From Paenibacillus polysaccharolyticus (GTDB lineage Bacteria > Bacillota > Bacilli > Paenibacillales > Paenibacillaceae): a stretch of 64,000 nucleotides of DNA. The notes under the pieces are model-generated. The model was not told where the DNA came from and searched no databases. It saw nothing but the letters and a program-made list of their open reading frames with translations. Shown here in pieces: positions 1 through 5,984 of the stretch. A program made the position numbers and the translations under genes. The stretch covers positions 124,001-188,000 of the forward strand of contig NZ_FMVM01000001.1 of assembly GCF_900102085.1 (NCBI RefSeq). Direction: 5' to 3'. The first letter of the stretch is position 1. Each line of letters begins with the position of its first letter.

Positions 1-616
1 CGACCTCTCCTTTTAAAGCCTGAAGCAGATGATAGGTCCATATCCCATGTTTTAGATTTAAGCTACCATATGATTTTTCACCACGAGAACACGAGAAAAA
101 AGCCGCACGGTAGTTACTCGATCGGATAAATTCAATGAATTCATCATGTCGCATTCCTGCAATAAAATCACGTCCTAAATCTAGTCCCTCTATAAAAGAG
201 GAGCATGAATCTACAAAGAGTAAGCTCTTGTTACAGGGCGAATTTCGAAGAGGCTCCATCAACACTTTATTCAGCGATACAGATGTTTCCTTTAAATTCT
301 CAGGATGAGTATCCCATGCCGTAAACTTATTTTGACCATTATCAAAAAATCCGTGCCCTGCATAATAAAAAATAAAACGATCATCTTCTTGAAGCATTTG
401 TATTTCATATTTTAATTCATGTTCCAACCTTGTTTTTGTAACGTCAGTGTTAATCCATAATTTTATATTATCATCTGGCACACCCAAATACTCATTAAGC
501 CAGAACTTAAATGCCTTTGCATCATTTGTTGCATACTCTACCTTTTTAATACCAAATTGATATTCTTCAACTGCAATAATCACAGCATACGTGTTTTCAG
601 GTGAAACTACTTTCAT
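1..616 (-). CDS. Caspase-family (peptidase C14) protein, 3' part missing
   Basis: The first 205 residues are present; the gene leaves the window at position 1. The start is an ATG behind GGAGGCTTGAAC. The p20-like caspase fold is clear. The catalytic histidine sits in FYYAGHGFF (His88) and the cysteine in LLFVDSCSS (Cys138, preceded by Asp136). The segment after Ser175, with SRGEKSYG and then HGIWTYHLLQALKGE, matches the substrate-pocket end of bacterial caspase-like proteases. Such proteases often carry C-terminal sensor or effector domains and act in abortive anti-phage or programmed-death modules. What follows the protease domain here cannot be seen. It is the last visible gene of the island and is separated from DUF4062 upstream by a terminator, so it is probably transcribed on its own. 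Confidence 0.85.
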   Translation of the reverse strand, partial: MKVVSPENTYAVIIAVEEYQFGIKKVEYATNDAKAFKFWLNEYLGVPDDNIKLWINTDVTKTRLEHELKYEIQMLQEDDRFIFYYAGHGFFDNGQNKFTAWDTHPENLKETSVSLNKVLMEPLRNSPCNKSLLFVDSCSSFIEGLDLGRDFIAGMRHDEFIEFIRSSNYRAAFFSCSRGEKSYGSLNLKHGIWTYHLLQALKGEV

Positions 617-731
617 GTTCAAGCCTCCGTATTCTTAGGTTGTTTACACTTTTAAAAGATAAGGAAGTGTAGTCATCAGCCCATCTTATTTAGGCTATCG
701 TCAACTGGAAATATACTTATTTATTAAAGAT

Positions 732-745
732 GACTAATATTAGTC
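732..745. promoter_or_regulatory. 14-bp perfect palindrome upstream of the caspase gene
   Basis: GACTAATATTAGTC is a perfect inverted repeat about 115 bp before the caspase-like start codon, inside the 290-bp gap between that gene and the DUF4062 terminator. It could be an operator or simply a chance AT-rich palindrome. No convincing -35/-10 pair was found next to it. Confidence 0.25.
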
Positions 746-869
746 TATTCTCTATCTCTCCAATATAGTAAAGTGACGTTCCCCTAATGATTATAGGTAC
801 CACTATATTATATGTCAGTTGATATAAAGTCATTCAATTAAATATTTACTATGTTGATGTAGAAAACTT

Positions 870-905
870 AAAAGGTTCCTCCCTATTACTCGAGAGGAAT
901 CTTTT
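870..905 (-). terminator. Rho-independent terminator after the DUF4062 gene
   Basis: The 12-base arms AAAAGGTTCCTC and GAGGAATCTTTT, one wobble apart, flank a 12-base loop. The minus-strand product ends in a U-rich tract. It starts 3 bases beyond the DUF4062 stop codon and separates this gene from the caspase gene. Confidence 0.75.
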
Positions 906-907
906 GT

Positions 908-2239
908 TTAATTCACATTAACAGGAATCACTATTGTTGTAGGTTCAGCATATTCATTACAGATAATTGTAGCTATTATTTCAAAAGTTCCCTTCTTAAG
1001 TGGGATAATAACATATTCATCGTCAAATGAAGTTCTACGCGTATGAGTCAAAGAATTAAGCCTTAATGTAAGTTTTTGATTCGATAATTTTGACCATGTT
1101 TCAGTATTGAAACGAGCTGGTTTCAATAGAACATTGTAATTCTTATTATTATTAAATTCCAATAACGATGTTACATTATATCTTTTCATTAATGAAAGTG
1201 CATCATTACCATAAAGTGCGTTATTAGCCTTCTGCTCCATAGAAATCAGAGGGTTTTCAGGTAGTCCGGCTATACTTCTAGGCTCTCGATGCTCGTAGTC
1301 AATTTCTAAAATAAGAATTTCATTTGGAAACTCTATATCAACGTATATGTTATTAGCGAGACTTTTCCCGACGTTATGAACCGTAAAATTTAAATTCTGT
1401 TTATTTAGTTCAATATGTTTGCTTCTTCTAAGTTCTTTATTATATCGATCAACTGTCTCTGTATTTAAACCAATAAATGTATTGTATTCAATTATCTCAC
1501 TCTCAATTACGTAAGGCTTCAACCTGTTTTCTATTTCTTGCATATTAATGATTTTCACTTCATTGTTGAGAATAGGATTCTTAAGAGTAAAATTCAAAGA
1601 ATTAAAATTGTTAAGTAGTAATTTAATCTCAGGCAAATTAGAGTTAAGTTTTCTTAACCCCTCTAACTCCTCTCTCAATTTTCGATTCTCGGTGCTAAGA
1701 TTGAAAAGTTCCTGAACACTTTCCGAACTTAAGACTTTATCAGCCCGAACCCACCCAGTTCTCGGGTGATTCACCATAGTTTTAGGAAGAGATTTTGCGA
1801 TTTCAGCCGCCAGCTTATCCTCGGTATCCCAGTAAGAAACGAGCCTACCTGTTTGAACTTTATCAATAAACTTATCCAATTTTTCAACCAAAGATATATC
1901 ACGATCTCTTTCCTTTGGTGACGTTGGCATATCACGGTCTCTTACAAATGCAATAATAGGAATACCTTGTTCCTTTGCAAAATCGAATTCTTTTTCTGTG
2001 TAGCTTATCCCTTCATGACTCAATGAACCATAACGGTGTCCTACGATGAGCAGATAATAATCACTGTCTCTAATCGTCTTCTCAATAAACTTCCATTGCT
2101 CATCGTCATCTGAACCGAACATTTCCATTCCCACAGGAAAGTGATACAAGCTCAGTATGGTATCAAAAGTGGTTTTTCTCGCATTAACTAGGTCAGAGTA
2201 TGTAGAACTAATAAATACTTGATATTTTTTATCAATCAT
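908..2239 (-). CDS. DUF4062 domain protein (TIR/STIR-like nucleotide-signalling fold)
   Basis: 443 residues. I chose the ATG at 2239 because GGAGGAGC lies just before it; an in-frame TTG four codons upstream overlaps that ribosome site. Residues ~5-100 match DUF4062: KYQVFISSTYSDL, then a conserved D-D-E-Q segment, then YYLLIVGHRYGS and SYTEKEFDFA. This N-terminal fold is related to TIR/Toll-like domains and occurs in many predicted defence proteins. A short coiled-coil-like stretch follows near residues 185-205 (ENRKLREELEGLRKL). The remaining C-terminal ~230 residues look like a beta-rich sensor region that I do not recognise. It sits between a caspase-like gene and an unknown gene in the island but has its own terminator. 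A role as a sensor or effector in phage defence is inferred. Confidence 0.8.
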   Translation of the reverse strand: MIDKKYQVFISSTYSDLVNARKTTFDTILSLYHFPVGMEMFGSDDDEQWKFIEKTIRDSDYYLLIVGHRYGSLSHEGISYTEKEFDFAKEQGIPIIAFVRDRDMPTSPKERDRDISLVEKLDKFIDKVQTGRLVSYWDTEDKLAAEIAKSLPKTMVNHPRTGWVRADKVLSSESVQELFNLSTENRKLREELEGLRKLNSNLPEIKLLLNNFNSLNFTLKNPILNNEVKIINMQEIENRLKPYVIESEIIEYNTFIGLNTETVDRYNKELRRSKHIELNKQNLNFTVHNVGKSLANNIYVDIEFPNEILILEIDYEHREPRSIAGLPENPLISMEQKANNALYGNDALSLMKRYNVTSLLEFNNNKNYNVLLKPARFNTETWSKLSNQKLTLRLNSLTHTRRTSFDDEYVIIPLKKGTFEIIATIICNEYAEPTTIVIPVNVN

Positions 2240-2408
2240 ATGCTCCTCCAATTATTTGTAGTTGAATAAGCTAAGTTCTCTCATTCAATTGTTACAAAAT
2301 AAAATACGATTGTAAACATAAACGATGGCAAACGCGAATAATATGTTGTGACGGACTTCAATGTCTATAATGTATCCATTATTTTATTATGTAATAGATT
2401 TTAAACAT

Positions 2409-2445
2409 GAAAAAAGTGTAGCAGAATATTTCACTACACCTTTTT
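2409..2445 (-). terminator. Hairpin terminator overlapping the end of the 245-residue unknown gene
   Basis: GTGTAG (2416-2421) pairs with CTACAC (2434-2439), extended by flanking A/T pairs, and the minus-strand RNA ends in a run of U. The stop codon lies within the stem. Confidence 0.65.
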
Positions 2446-3171
2446 CATGTTTGAAATTGGAACCTTCGCTAACCCCTCTTCGACGTGTTTCTTTTGATTG
2501 ATTATCTGATCGCGTACAACTCTGTCACGTTTCATTTCTATACGCTGTTCACCGCAGGGGCTACAACCAGGAAGTGGATATTGGGGCAACTCTGGTGGAT
2601 CAGGAAACGGAAAACAAAGAGGTCCACCAGGGACAATTATCGCGTTTTTTTCACAGTAGTCCCAATTCTCAAAACTTTTCCTACACTTCTCTTCTTGTAT
2701 ACTCAATACGCGATTAGTACCATCCAGTACATACGTAAACATTTCTCTCACCATATCATCATGGTTATCATTAAAAGTAAATTTCGCTTCAGACATAGCA
2801 GTTGCTCTTAGAAACGTCAAAATAGTGAGTAAATCAAGTGCATCGCGTAAAATCGGAAATTCTGTAGCACTCTCGAATACGACTCGAATTTCTCCTATTG
2901 CCATATTAGCGTCATAAATAATTTTCTCAAGTAAATTCTTGTGCTCAGAGTCAGGTTTATAGTCCTTTAAGTTAAGAAACAAACCCAGATAAATCCCTTC
3001 AATTCTTTGTAAGCGCATTTGTTCTAGTTTTGCCGTTATGTCATTCGTCACTTGCTGAGCTGCATCGTAAATCGCTCTGATAATTGAATTAATAGCCTCT
3101 TTGTCATTTTGCGACTTTTCACGTTCCTTATAAGCATCCATAATTGCCGTGACGATCTCTACCCAGCCCAT
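2434..3171 (-). CDS. Hypothetical protein of the comEC island
   Basis: 245 residues, family not recognised. The ATG is preceded by AAAGGGGGC at good spacing. Residues 1-165 are charged and helical in pattern, with heptad-like leucines and isoleucines (for example IRAIYDAAQQVTNDI and ITAKLEQMRLQRIEGIYLG), so it is probably a soluble helical bundle. Residues ~178-206 are unusual: a proline-rich loop beginning VPGGPLCFPFPDPPELP and ending in PLPGCSPCG, with a CxxC pair. The tail (~207-245) is basic. No signal peptide or membrane segment is seen. It is flanked by its own terminator and lies between the DUF4062 gene and the zinc-finger protein. The island context suggests accessory function; I assign none. 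Confidence 0.55.
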   Translation of the reverse strand: MGWVEIVTAIMDAYKEREKSQNDKEAINSIIRAIYDAAQQVTNDITAKLEQMRLQRIEGIYLGLFLNLKDYKPDSEHKNLLEKIIYDANMAIGEIRVVFESATEFPILRDALDLLTILTFLRATAMSEAKFTFNDNHDDMVREMFTYVLDGTNRVLSIQEEKCRKSFENWDYCEKNAIIVPGGPLCFPFPDPPELPQYPLPGCSPCGEQRIEMKRDRVVRDQIINQKKHVEEGLAKVPISNMKKV

Positions 3172-3267
3172 TTTTAGCCCCCTTTGTTAAATAGTCTTTC
3201 CCGTCTCATTTCTTATGATTCAAGAAAAATACACTGGAAACACGTTAATATCCCAAAACAAACAAGC

Positions 3268-3297
3268 ATTCCCAACACCGGACTGGCTGGGAACGCT
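3268..3297 (-). terminator. Weak hairpin after the zinc-finger gene
   Basis: TTCCCA and TGGGAA arms flank an imperfect inner stem. On the minus strand it is followed by an interrupted U-rich stretch. It lies 18 bases beyond the HNH-like gene and probably ends that transcript. Confidence 0.4.
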
Positions 3298-3314
3298 TAT
3301 GGTGAATCTTCAAT

Positions 3315-4397
3315 TCATATTACCTTAAATGCTTCACTTAAAAAATTCGGAATGGAATCTCTTTTATTCAAATCATAGTATTCCTTTGCCGCTGTTAATG
3401 AATCTGCGAACGGACTATCAGCAATAGAAACAGGGATCGTTTTTGCTACATCTTTCAGGTTTTCATTGCCAATAATTTCTTGATTGATTCCTTTATAGAA
3501 ATAATAATCCTCGGAGTAAAGGAAAATAATGTAGTTAATGACCTTTAGTTTTTCTTCAGTCGAAAGTTTTCTAAATTGTTTAAAAAACTTTGAGTATCTA
3601 TTTTCACCATTTCTACAAAACATCATTATTATGCTATGGGTTTTAAGCGGAAAGACGCATATCTGGATATTTTTTATTACATATTCGCTTAAAGGATTGT
3701 AGATGTCATTAATAGTACCACCTTCAAGATCAGAAACTAGGGCAATATTATTCTGAAATGCAATCGGAACAACATAAGGAACGGAGTGAAAATAAGACAA
3801 ATAATAATTATTATCCCATTTTGATTGACATGCTTTTTTAGCATAACTAAACTCGTCAACGTATTCCTCTAAATCTAATGATCCCACTCCTTCCATTTGA
3901 CTTAACATTTGCAATTCGCCGAATTCTTTTGTCATATTTCTGTATATTTGAATTTCCAATTGTCTTTTACTAATACTTTTCAGGTAATTTTTCATTGCTA
4001 TTTGAGAAAGCATCTTGTCCGTCGGTTCTTGATAATAAGCCTCAGGATTTTCATAATCACTAAAAGCTGAACTATCACACTCTCTACAAATTATTTTAAA
4101 AGTACCAGCCTCACCTATTCCTTTTTCTTTATCTACCATAGGCATATCGACTAAATTACCAGAATGGTAAAACTTACCTTCTTCAGCTATGTTTTGAAGA
4201 CAGAACTGGGGAACCGAATGTGAATTACAGAAGCTGCTACAATCTTTTCCACAGATAAGACACTGAGAGTTCTTGGCATTAGCTCTACTAGCCTTGAGCA
4301 TGTTCCCCACTCTTTTGTTATATTCAACTTTGTTCTTATCATATAAGTTTTTCTCGTTTTGAGTTAACCCTAGTTTGAGCAAAGATACATTATCCAC
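3315..4397 (-). CDS. Zinc-finger/HNH-like protein
   Basis: 360 residues, starting at GTG (4397) behind GGGAGAG. Residues ~46-70 read CLICGKDCSSFCNSHSVPQF, and ICRECDSS follows about 30 residues later. A CxxC pair, a Ser-His-Ser-Val-Pro core and a second CxxC followed by an acidic/asparagine segment (DYENPEAY) is the layout of treble-clef HNH-type nucleases. The canonical second histidine is not obvious, so catalytic activity is uncertain. The C-terminal 200 residues are a mixed alpha/beta region of unknown family. It is the island gene nearest the comEC junction and is read away from it. A restriction-like or toxin role is possible but only inferred from the fold and the neighbours. Confidence 0.5.
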   Translation of the reverse strand: MDNVSLLKLGLTQNEKNLYDKNKVEYNKRVGNMLKASRANAKNSQCLICGKDCSSFCNSHSVPQFCLQNIAEEGKFYHSGNLVDMPMVDKEKGIGEAGTFKIICRECDSSAFSDYENPEAYYQEPTDKMLSQIAMKNYLKSISKRQLEIQIYRNMTKEFGELQMLSQMEGVGSLDLEEYVDEFSYAKKACQSKWDNNYYLSYFHSVPYVVPIAFQNNIALVSDLEGGTINDIYNPLSEYVIKNIQICVFPLKTHSIIMMFCRNGENRYSKFFKQFRKLSTEEKLKVINYIIFLYSEDYYFYKGINQEIIGNENLKDVAKTIPVSIADSPFADSLTAAKEYYDLNKRDSIPNFLSEAFKVI

Positions 4398-4623
4398 TAT
4401 TAATCTCTCCCAAAGGTGATTTCATTCGTCATTATCTATCAAGTCAATTATATCAGAATAATGCGTTCCCGTAATCTGCCCATATCAATCATAATTAGCT
4501 TCGCACATAAGATATATCAGTTAAAAAGTAATGTTTACTTATCAACAAATAAGGAATTTCAGATCGTTGTTTATCATTGAGTAAAGAAAAAACCTGATGT
4601 ATCAAGCTTTATCCTAGTGCTCA

Positions 4624-4660
4624 TTATCATTTCCTCTGCAAATTTTATCATTACATGTGA
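4624..4660 (-). repeat. Inner pair of terminal repeats (copies 1 and 2)
   Basis: Two direct copies lie 21 bp apart, TTATCATTTCCTCTGCA at 4624 and TTATCATTACATGTGA at 4645. They match the copies at 4798, 4852 and 4873. The inner pair is less conserved, as is common for end-distal TnsB sites. No gene lies in 4398-4858. Confidence 0.6.
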
Positions 4661-4683
4661 GAATCTTCATGACACCATGACCA

Positions 4684-4707
4684 TTATCATTATCATGGTA
4701 ATGATAA
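4684..4707. repeat. 24-bp near-perfect palindrome inside the element end
   Basis: TTATCATTATCA is followed at once by TGGTAATGATAA, which is its reverse complement apart from one base. Both arms contain the TTATCAT core of the terminal repeats, one in each orientation. It could be a head-to-head pair of half sites or a protein-binding palindrome. Confidence 0.5.
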
Positions 4708-4714
4708 GTAGCAA

Positions 4715-4735
4715 AAACGCCAAAATTCGGCGTTT
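4715..4735. terminator. Small hairpin AAACGCC...GGCGTTT
   Basis: Seven-base arms flank a 7-base loop, with A-tract and T-tract on the two sides, so it could stop transcription in either direction near the element end. It would shield the cargo from comEC transcription. Confidence 0.4.
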
Positions 4736-4797
4736 ATCAAAATGAATGGTGATAATGACTTCTCAGAAACAGGAACACTAGTTCGCGAATAAACGTT

Positions 4798-4813
4798 TTA
4801 TCATGTCATGTGG
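4798..4813 (-). repeat. Terminal repeat copy 3
   Basis: TTATCATGTCATGTGG matches the outer copies at 4852 and 4873 with a few changes in the middle. It stands alone, 54 bp from the next copy. Confidence 0.6.
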
Positions 4814-4851
4814 GAATCGCCCTTGATTTACAAGGCTTTGCGATGTTTATT

Positions 4852-4888
4852 TTATCATTTACTGTGGAGCTATTATCATTTCGTGTGG
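4852..4888 (-). repeat. Outer pair of terminal repeats (copies 4 and 5) next to the comEC junction
   Basis: TTATCATTTACTGTGG (4852) and TTATCATTTCGTGTGG (4873) are direct copies with a 21-bp period, the outermost ending about 10 bp from the junction. The element end then reads TGTGTAGG or TGTAGGTC on the minus strand. Adjacent ~20-bp sites followed by a short TGT terminus are typical of one end of Tn7-family elements. Confidence 0.65.
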
Positions 4889-5941
4889 TGACCTACACAT
4901 AGACATCATACCTGCCCGAATGACCGATGGAGAACCGCCCGAGAGCAGTACATATGCTGGGACGAGAACCAGCACAATCGTTAGAGCTGTCTCTCTTGTT
5001 AATCTCAGCCATGATAACAGCATGAGCAATGAAGCCACATACACTGCAACATGTGTACCCGAGATGGCGAGGATATGAGTTAATCCGAGCTGTGAGAATT
5101 GACCGTACGTACCTGGATCAATATCCTTCGCCATTCCGATGATCAGACCTTTCATGTAACCGGCATGCGGTTCAGGAAACAACCGATCTACCGCCGAACC
5201 GAGCAGTAGTCTTGCCGAATCTGTCCACCGTAAGATGTTTATTTTCCCCAGCCCTTCAGGAGACGAAGCATGAACCGAACTGGCCCCCTTCACTTTGACC
5301 ATCCAATGGATATACTGCGTCCTTAGATAGCTACGATAGTCAAATCCTCCAAAATTTCTGGCTTCACCAGGAAGAACTATCGAGCCTGACAGTTTCAGCT
5401 TATCCCCTCGCTTCCAAGATGCTGCTGTATGCTGTTCCTGCTCTTCCATTAATCGGACTTGTACAATGACTCTTTCATTCATTTTGTCCGAAGTCGCTTG
5501 TGACTTTAGTGATTGCAAGGAAGGATCTGGCGAAGAATCTTGATTCTTGACTTCCTTATCTGTCTCTTCATACAGCCTAAGAGAAGAAATCTGCATCTCA
5601 AAACCTGCCCGATCCCCATCAACCTGCACACCCGATACAAGTTCCCCTTCAACTTGAACATCTAACCCATCAATTACGTCAGTAGATCGATGTAAATATG
5701 CTGGCAATGTACTATAATTACGAAAATCATTCCACTCCCACTGTATTAAACCACCTGCAAAAGCAATAACTAAAAGAAGAATCGACCACCCACGAATATT
5801 CATGAAACGAAGTAAGAGTGGAAGACATGCCATCGCCCCGACTACTCCCCAAAATAAAGTCCATCCCCCCGTTAATAAACACGCCATGCCACTACCGCAC
5901 AACCAAAAGATCGTAAAGCGAAGCAATGGTCTGCCTTTCAT
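4859..5941 (-). pseudogene. comEC: comEC, DNA-uptake channel gene truncated by the island
   Basis: ComEC forms the membrane channel for transforming DNA and is usually about 750-850 residues. Only the N-terminal half is left. After the start (ATG 5941, behind AGAAGGGAGAGG) come hydrophobic N-terminal segments, the OB-like extracellular region, and the beginning of the competence domain with GLTHILAISGTHVAVYVASL and VLLSGGSPSVIRAGMMSM. After that Met, homology stops at ~4900 and a foreign tail of about a dozen codons runs to a TAA at 4859 inside the element. The rest of the channel and the C-terminal metallo-beta-lactamase-like domain are missing, so natural transformation should be abolished. 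A TTG at 5971 is an alternative start. The 3' half may persist beyond the left edge. Confidence 0.85.
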
Positions 5942-5984
5942 TCTGTCCCTCTCCCTTCTGCTCATCTCCAAGGCAATAAATACA

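Follow-up and report, generated by a model that had tools for sequence, protein, structure and literature searches.

The window analysed here is a 64,000-bp stretch of the Paenibacillus polysaccharolyticus genome (G000; 6.5 Mb in 34 contigs), C15:124001-188000, in which position 1 is C15:124001. Its left edge falls within a Tn7-like transposon of 43,888 bp, which was delimited by its ends, a target-site duplication and its flanks, and which had a GC content of 35%, compared with 47% in the flanks. The features in and beside the window are listed below (window positions unless a contig is named).

C15:85010-128897, Tn7-like transposon; its comEC-proximal 4,897 bp occupy window 1..4897
1..622, minus strand, start of a cargo ORF (C15:123135-124622, 495 aa) that carries a caspase (Peptidase_C14) domain
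908..2251, minus strand, cargo ORF of 447 aa with a DUF4062 domain
2434..3171, minus strand, cargo ORF of 245 aa, no Pfam match at E ≤ 0.01
3315..4397, minus strand, cargo ORF of 360 aa, no Pfam match at E ≤ 0.01
4624..4888, plus strand, array of TTATCATNNNNTGTGG, putative TnsB-binding sites; copies at 4624 (2 mismatches), 4645 (1 mismatch), 4798, 4852 and 4873 (0 each), and a weaker copy at 4734 (3 mismatches)
4895..4897, plus strand, transposon terminus ACA (TGT on the other strand)
4898..4902, target-site duplication CATAG, 5 bp, perfect; second copy at C15:85005-85009
4898..5971, minus strand, 5' part of comEC; its ORF (4859-5971) extends 39 bp into the element
C15:83031-85009, 3' part of comEC, on the other side of the element

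An earlier note, made from the letters of this DNA alone, had read five direct motif copies, four of them in two pairs with an exact 21-bp period, as the end of a Tn7-family transposon inside comEC. All five copies and both pairs (4624/4645 and 4852/4873) were recovered; the array is therefore real, but the element stops at 4897 rather than at 4899, and weaker copies are also present. Sites with at most 2 mismatches numbered 5 in the 300-bp comEC-side end (expected 0.056) and 5 in the opposite end (expected 0.058), with no outward-pointing copy among them, and 0 of 2000 dinucleotide shuffles reached five sites for either end. The 43-kb interior held 8 such sites, both strands summed. The exact motif occurred five times in the whole genome (three times in the comEC-side end, once in the far end, and once elsewhere), and a reversed-pattern control occurred 0 times. 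The shuffles and the whole-genome count ruled out chance repeats.

The TGT terminus placed on the element side by the earlier note was confirmed, the plus strand of the element ending in ...CCTACA. Read inward, the comEC-side end is TGTAGGTCACCACACG and the far end is TGTAAGCCACCAGATT; the termini are TGTAAGCCACCAGATTAAATGATAA and, at the opposite side, TGTAGGTCACCACACGAAATGATAA, and a copy of CATAG adjoins each. The mirrored repeats and the 5-bp duplication expected at the opposite end were thus both found. In a brute-force end search over set ranges (TGT...ACA, matching 5-bp flanks, and similar ends), the C15 pair ranked first with 19 of 24 end letters alike, and the next pair listed had 13 of 24, which is the reporting floor. 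Ends of the TGT...ACA type that bear ~20-bp sites in inward-facing arrays are a characteristic of Tn7-like elements.

The comEC gene is divided by this element. The PF03772 (Competence) match is split into positions 1-87 at C15:128895-129146 and positions 86-268 at C15:84459-85007, and the 3' half of the gene, which was expected to the left, was found 43.9 kb away on the same contig. An intact comEC elsewhere in the strain would have contradicted an insertion, and no second, unsplit copy was found in the G000 genome (no other PF03772 match at E ≤ 0.001). When the flanks were joined, they gave an open comEC frame across the insertion site, and this frame aligned without gaps to the uninterrupted comEC of all five genus members compared. 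Of 75 genomes of the genus, 72 had an unsplit PF03772; the other three were G000, G054 (which also carries an insertion), and G005. G005 was rejected as an insertion, as its comEC is frameshifted and no insertion was found within the 7 kb looked at, and G079 was rejected as well, its two comEC matches touching each other and being read as a frameshift. Two partial comEC matches lie on different contigs in G764. In three genomes, including the two hosts G196 and G155 described below, open frames start within the element end and continue in frame into the comEC 3' half (C15:83031-85076, G196:C14:158777-160636, and G155:C1:1738525-1740468), and a shortened ComEC might be made from them.

Between the two comEC halves, where tnsB, tnsC and tniQ genes had been anticipated, tnsC, tnsB, and two tniQ genes were found. 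They run in one common direction together with a helix-turn-helix gene.

C15:111358-113187, tniQ2, TniQ domain
C15:109567-110463, helix-turn-helix gene between tniQ2 and tniQ1
C15:107792-109450, tniQ1, TniQ domain
C15:105833-107788, tnsB, rve and Mu-type C-terminal (Mu-transpos_C) domains
C15:104910-105836, tnsC, TniB-type ATPase (E = 2e-24)

TnsB keeps residues D264, D349, and E385, which were invariant in four of four aligned TnsB sequences. Its nearest PDB chains were PseTnsAB (E = 2.7e-80) and then Tn6677 TnsB (3.7e-60), both of type I-F3; a chain that we take to be of type V-K matched at 2e-34, so that TnsB is closer to the I-F3 chains. The two TniQ proteins gave TniQ Pfam matches (E = 7.1e-14 and 8.2e-13) and also matched TniQ and TnsD proteins in the PDB. 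In each, the TniQ domain is followed by a long C-terminal region that gave helix-turn-helix matches (HTH_17, E = 4.4e-11 for TniQ2 and 0.0025, below the cut-off, for TniQ1). The set of a TnsB with a Mu-type C-terminal domain, a TnsC/TniB AAA+ regulator, and a TniQ/TnsD selector is that of a Tn7-like element. The identification of a Tn7-family end therefore held on every count (arrays, TGT...ACA, CATAG, tnsC, tnsB, and two tniQ), and the core genes and the 5-bp duplications exclude both a simple IS and a phage att site, as the earlier note had argued.

When 394 genomes of the family were searched with TniQ and comEC was inspected wherever relatives appeared, five further elements in comEC were found, six in total with that of G000. 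They are listed with their lengths, their 5-bp duplications, and their insertion offsets from the P codon of PSVxRAG.

G000, P. polysaccharolyticus, 43.9 kb, CATAG, +28
G054, Paenibacillus sp. OVF10 (L081), 53.5 kb, CATGG, +28
G196, P. phytohabitans LMG 31459 (L080), 39.5 kb, CCGGT, -11
G361, Paenibacillus sp. SY21-1 (L082), 44.0 kb, GATGC, -6
G155, 34.9 kb, TCTCG, -68
G302, 39.6 kb, GCTGC, -49

The duplication was perfect in all six elements; five were found by a fixed-range script and that of G361 after the range was widened, and all were rechecked. The six insertion points span 96 bp, and the orientation is the same in all six, with the core operons running in the direction of comEC. By genome comparison, these elements thus appear to insert in a site- and orientation-specific manner, which is a further characteristic of Tn7-like transposons. 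Relatives of both TniQ1 and TniQ2 were carried by all six. The distances of the end sites from the termini were nearly identical in G000, G054, and G196, although TnsB identity between G196 and G000 is only 71%. The G054 assembly has a completeness of 89% and many broken frames, including comEC. It also contains an internal copy of the comEC-side terminus (G054:C1:5774268-5774313, L018), ~6.2 kb from the true end and with no duplication after it, which is presumably a remnant or a stacked insertion.

Among the 394 genomes, relatives of TniQ1 (E ≤ 1e-15) were found in 8, of TniQ2 (E ≤ 1e-15) in 18, and of TnsB (E ≤ 1e-60) in 26, and comEC was inspected in 91 (75 + 6 + 10); unrelated elements may therefore also have entered comEC in other members of the family. 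The inspection covered 20 of the 26 TnsB-bearing genomes (all except G080, G090, G143, G255, G285, and G334); comEC was split by an element in 6 of these and not in 14. Across the class, 398 genomes searched with TnsB gave, apart from G000 itself, a single relative at E ≤ 1e-90 (G403), in which comEC is unsplit. When Paenibacillus ComEC queries were run against the flanks (at most 10 kb and often shorter) of the best 80 of 96 contig-scan relatives, comEC sequence was detected in two (L080 and L082); in the comEC element L081 the gene falls beyond the fetched flank, and the other 77 had none in their flanks. In a TnsB search of plasmids, all of the matches listed, at least 5000, were below 60% identity.

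Chance landing of an untargeted Tn7-like element in comEC, followed by retention because the gene is dispensable, would leave the same picture in one genome taken alone. Six insertions within 96 bp, in one orientation and from two transposase lineages, make this explanation highly improbable, as do two insertions at the same nucleotide with separate histories and a close TnsB group (E ≤ 1e-126) in which six of eight genomes have comEC split by an element. The histories of that pair, G000 and G054, also bear on the idea of one old insertion that was inherited by descent and then diverged. The two share cargo as well as the insertion nucleotide, as such descent would predict; however, the element DNA common to both (30,093 of 43,888 bp) is ~91% identical, and the host flanks are far less alike (comEC 68–77%, comEB 83%). 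At least one of the two must therefore have received its element by transfer, at this very nucleotide. In addition, the other four insertions are at other positions, and PF03772 is unsplit in nearly all of the 75 genus members. Descent from one insertion is accordingly very hard to credit.

The cargo of the G000 element includes several defence-type genes by domain match, and no complete defence system was established. The matches comprised a KAP ATPase, a GmrSD-type restriction enzyme, an FRG-domain protein, a CAP12/Pycsar-type TIR protein, an LmuA-like protein, a GajB-like helicase, a protein kinase, and the caspase-domain and DUF4062 proteins. A 129-aa protein (C15:94922-95311) had an archaeal-histone/CBF match at E = 1.4e-4, just over the cut-off; its gene forms an apparent operon with those of two proteins lacking a Pfam match, and all three are 94–98% identical in G054. 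At C15:100330-101571 lies the gene of a 253-aa protein with Cu-amine-oxidase-N and NPCBM domains, which has relatives in four of the six comEC elements (G000, G054, G361, and G155) and adjoins a divergent XRE gene in G000, G361, and G155.

None of the six comEC elements gave a TnsA match (PF08722, E ≤ 1), including that of G000, which in this respect differs from the cut-and-paste Tn7 proper with its TnsA endonuclease. A TnsA-sized ORF was present just upstream of tnsB in 6 of 10 other loci (L085, L089, L090, L144, L111, and G403); these six are more distant relatives, and all six ORFs were TnsA by Pfam. The related element of G236 had no TnsA match (PF08722), and L083, L084, and L127 had no TnsA-sized ORF upstream of tnsB, as judged by eye. 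The simplest reading of these sequences is that TnsA was lost in this Bacillales branch. If TnsA were instead supplied in trans by another Tn7-like element, cut-and-paste movement would be retained. TnsA matches were found outside the element in G000 (on contig 17 beside another TnsB), G196, and G155, but G054, G361, and G302 had no PF08722 match at E ≤ 1 anywhere in the genome, and we consider supply in trans improbable. The contig 17 locus of G000 (C17:17216-19354), where a different TnsB has a TnsA-like gene beside it, represents a second Tn7-like element in the same genome.

Tn7 has TnsA and spares glmS. The G000 element resembles Tn7 with TnsD at attTn7 in its TnsB, TnsC, and TniQ/TnsD-type proteins, TGT ends, site arrays, 5-bp duplication, and single orientation, but it differs in having no TnsA match, two TniQ proteins, and a target gene that is cut in two. 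The glmS neighbourhood is the classical Tn7 site, and the Lachnoclostridium element L111, with TnsA, TnsB, TnsC, and one TniQ, adjoins an ORF that reads by eye as glmS. With CRISPR-associated transposons, the G000 element shares the affinity of its TnsB to type I-F3 chains and, for type I-B and some I-F3 systems as described in the part of the source used (PMC11406308), the presence of two TniQ-family proteins. Unlike them, it gave no Cas family match in Pfam in any of its 39 ORFs of at least 100 aa, and no CRISPR array was seen in it (no direct repeats of at least 22 bp within 150 bp across the whole element); CRISPR guidance was rejected, as no array was found. Tn5053 and type V-K systems are likewise TnsA-less according to the same partial source (PMC11406308), but the same 39 ORFs had no Pfam match to a resolvase, nor to a tyrosine recombinase. 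A protein of the G302 element begins like a serine recombinase, as judged by eye.

Conservation around the target was tabulated from -160 to +100 for 26 comEC genes (26 of 28 sequences were usable; G000, whose left flank was too short, and L180 of G083 were left out). Two conserved DNA blocks were observed, at about -158 to -113 (LTHILAISG) and about -40 to +31 (YVLLSGxxPSVxRAG). The G000 and G054 insertions lie at the downstream edge of the second block, those of G196 and G361 within it, and those of G155 and G302 between the two blocks, where conservation is lower. With insertion points up to 96 bp apart, a single recognition site at a constant distance cannot account for all six insertions.

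Phylogenetic analysis of the core proteins was used to ask which of them reads comEC. In the TnsB tree (in which G054 and G302 were entered as their longest open fragments), the comEC elements fell into two groups, each beside elements of genomes with unsplit comEC: group A with G000, G054, G196, and G361, together with G236, and group B with G155 and G302, together with Bacillus, Neobacillus, and Cohnella elements. A single TnsB clade of the six comEC elements was rejected (p-AU 7e-6), as was a single TniQ1 clade of the five comEC rows that could be used (p-AU 0.008; long branches were present), although the AU test assumes a group named before the tree and the comEC groups were named after it. 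TniQ1 of the comEC elements groups with TniQ1 of non-comEC elements (G236, L083, and L127). The TniQ2 tree without G349 placed the five usable comEC rows opposite 14 others (91/85, a support that was not starred, with some long branches; 90% of 200 bootstrap trees), and 13 of these 14, none from an element found in comEC, formed their own group (92/90). The TniQ of G054 entered no tree, as its tniQ frames are broken, and the TnsD of L111 and TniQ of L085 (long branches) and the TniQ2-like fragment of L127 (length) were left out of the second TniQ tree.

The exception is G349. Its TniQ2 is close to that of G361 and falls inside the comEC TniQ2 group, yet its comEC is unsplit; with G349 kept, the comEC label needs two changes, and 0% of bootstrap trees need only one. 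This TniQ2 belongs to a decayed fragment outside comEC (G349:C25:38322-54346), ~15 kb of which is 89–91% identical to the G361 element, and no TnsB of the comEC-element kind was found in the genome at E ≤ 1e-60. The fragment lies next to IS-like ORFs and near the contig end, and no core transposase was seen in it. The one-clade tests favour TniQ2 as the reader about as much as the G349 count weakens it.

Because TnsB and TniQ1 reject one comEC clade and TniQ2 groups by target once G349 is left out, TniQ2 is the likely comEC reader, and the trees point to it as a selector that was exchanged between transposase lineages. A less probable though still credible alternative is that TniQ1, or TniQ1 and TniQ2 jointly, reads comEC and that TniQ2 serves a second pathway, e.g., spread to plasmids. 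The presence of both TniQ in every comEC element, the long C-terminal parts with helix-turn-helix matches in both, and the unsplit comEC of G349, a genome with a comEC-type TniQ2, would fit this alternative; the grouping of TniQ1 with non-comEC elements, the rejection of its single clade, and the grouping of TniQ2 by target argue against it. The sister element of G236 (C1:2876889-2892609, 15,721 bp, duplication ATAAG) lies between genes, in an apparent terminator hairpin beside a 1260-aa ORF, indicating that its branch can use a gene-sparing site. The ends of the L083, L084, and L127 elements were not found by the brute-force search.

Taken together, these results make it very probable that the array in the window is the end, on the comEC side, of a Tn7-like transposon that lacks TnsA and encodes two TniQ proteins, and that the lineage of this transposon homes to a short segment of the comEC coding sequence. 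In the proposed mechanism, TnsB would bind the end arrays, and TniQ2 would recognise comEC DNA and, acting with TnsC and TniQ1, guide TnsB to a nearby insertion point and a constant orientation. In the absence of TnsA, transposition would initially give a cointegrate, which the host or a resolvase would have to resolve. The insertion is predicted to stop ComEC-dependent DNA uptake, and such a block would shield the element from replacement through transformation. We infer both the comEC targeting and the loss of DNA uptake from genome comparison, and the block of transformation in these hosts is proposed by analogy: in the available part of the comM study, an A. baumannii comEC mutant was non-transformable and served as a control.

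Mobile elements in competence genes have precedents. Prophages and other elements break comK, comYC, comFA, and comM, and comEC is not listed in the part of that study consulted (Croucher 2016, PMC4774983); like the elements described here, they break competence genes at conserved places, but they are integrase-driven. In Piscirickettsia salmonis, comEC is described, in the accessible text, as broken by several different mobile elements at non-identical positions, with erosion, unlike the present case in that no single targeted lineage is involved (PMC12955456). A close parallel is found in Tn6022 and the AbaR islands, which are Tn7-like, interrupt a transformation gene at a conserved coding stretch, and have been proposed, in the portions covered, to limit transformation by disrupting comM (PMC10293859, PMC11472951). 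By analogy, the comEC targeting described here is a parallel to comM targeting by Tn6022, but the Tn6022 target comM is read by TnsF, as far as those portions describe it, whereas the elements reported here insert in comEC and have two TniQ proteins, and the G000 element lacks a tyrosine-recombinase match. In its main text, as distinct from its supplements, a survey of 6,549 Tn7-like transposons does not mention comEC (PMC8649781), and the same holds for the main text of a selector survey (PMC10293859). No case of comEC as a Tn7-family target appeared in the literature searched, the coverage of which was incomplete, and comEC targeting may already be in print elsewhere.

The homing may be real and comEC nevertheless only a tolerated site, the uptake block being of no benefit to the element. 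We regard this as a serious possibility, somewhat short of even. Against it, the insertion cuts the gene, unlike classical Tn7 beside glmS, and elements that break competence genes recur (comK, comYC, comFA, and comM in the part of PMC4774983 used). On balance, we lean slightly towards the fuller interpretation, in which these elements would form a separate Paenibacillaceae branch of Tn7-like transposons that lost TnsA and in which a dedicated TniQ2, swapped between two transposase lineages, would read the conserved comEC core. Each insertion would then destroy the uptake pore, making this a second independent case, beside TnsF and comM, in which Tn7-family elements specialise in disabling transformation.

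If this is true, the DNA-uptake pore itself would join the competence genes singled out by mobile elements, and Tn7-family elements would have arrived at a transformation-disabling strategy on at least two occasions, with comM and with comEC. Because the six natural insertions comprise two families of end sequences, and each has two TniQ proteins, they allow target choice by TniQ proteins to be tested directly, and the comEC elements may yield an insertion system that is guided by protein, has a new target, and lacks TnsA.
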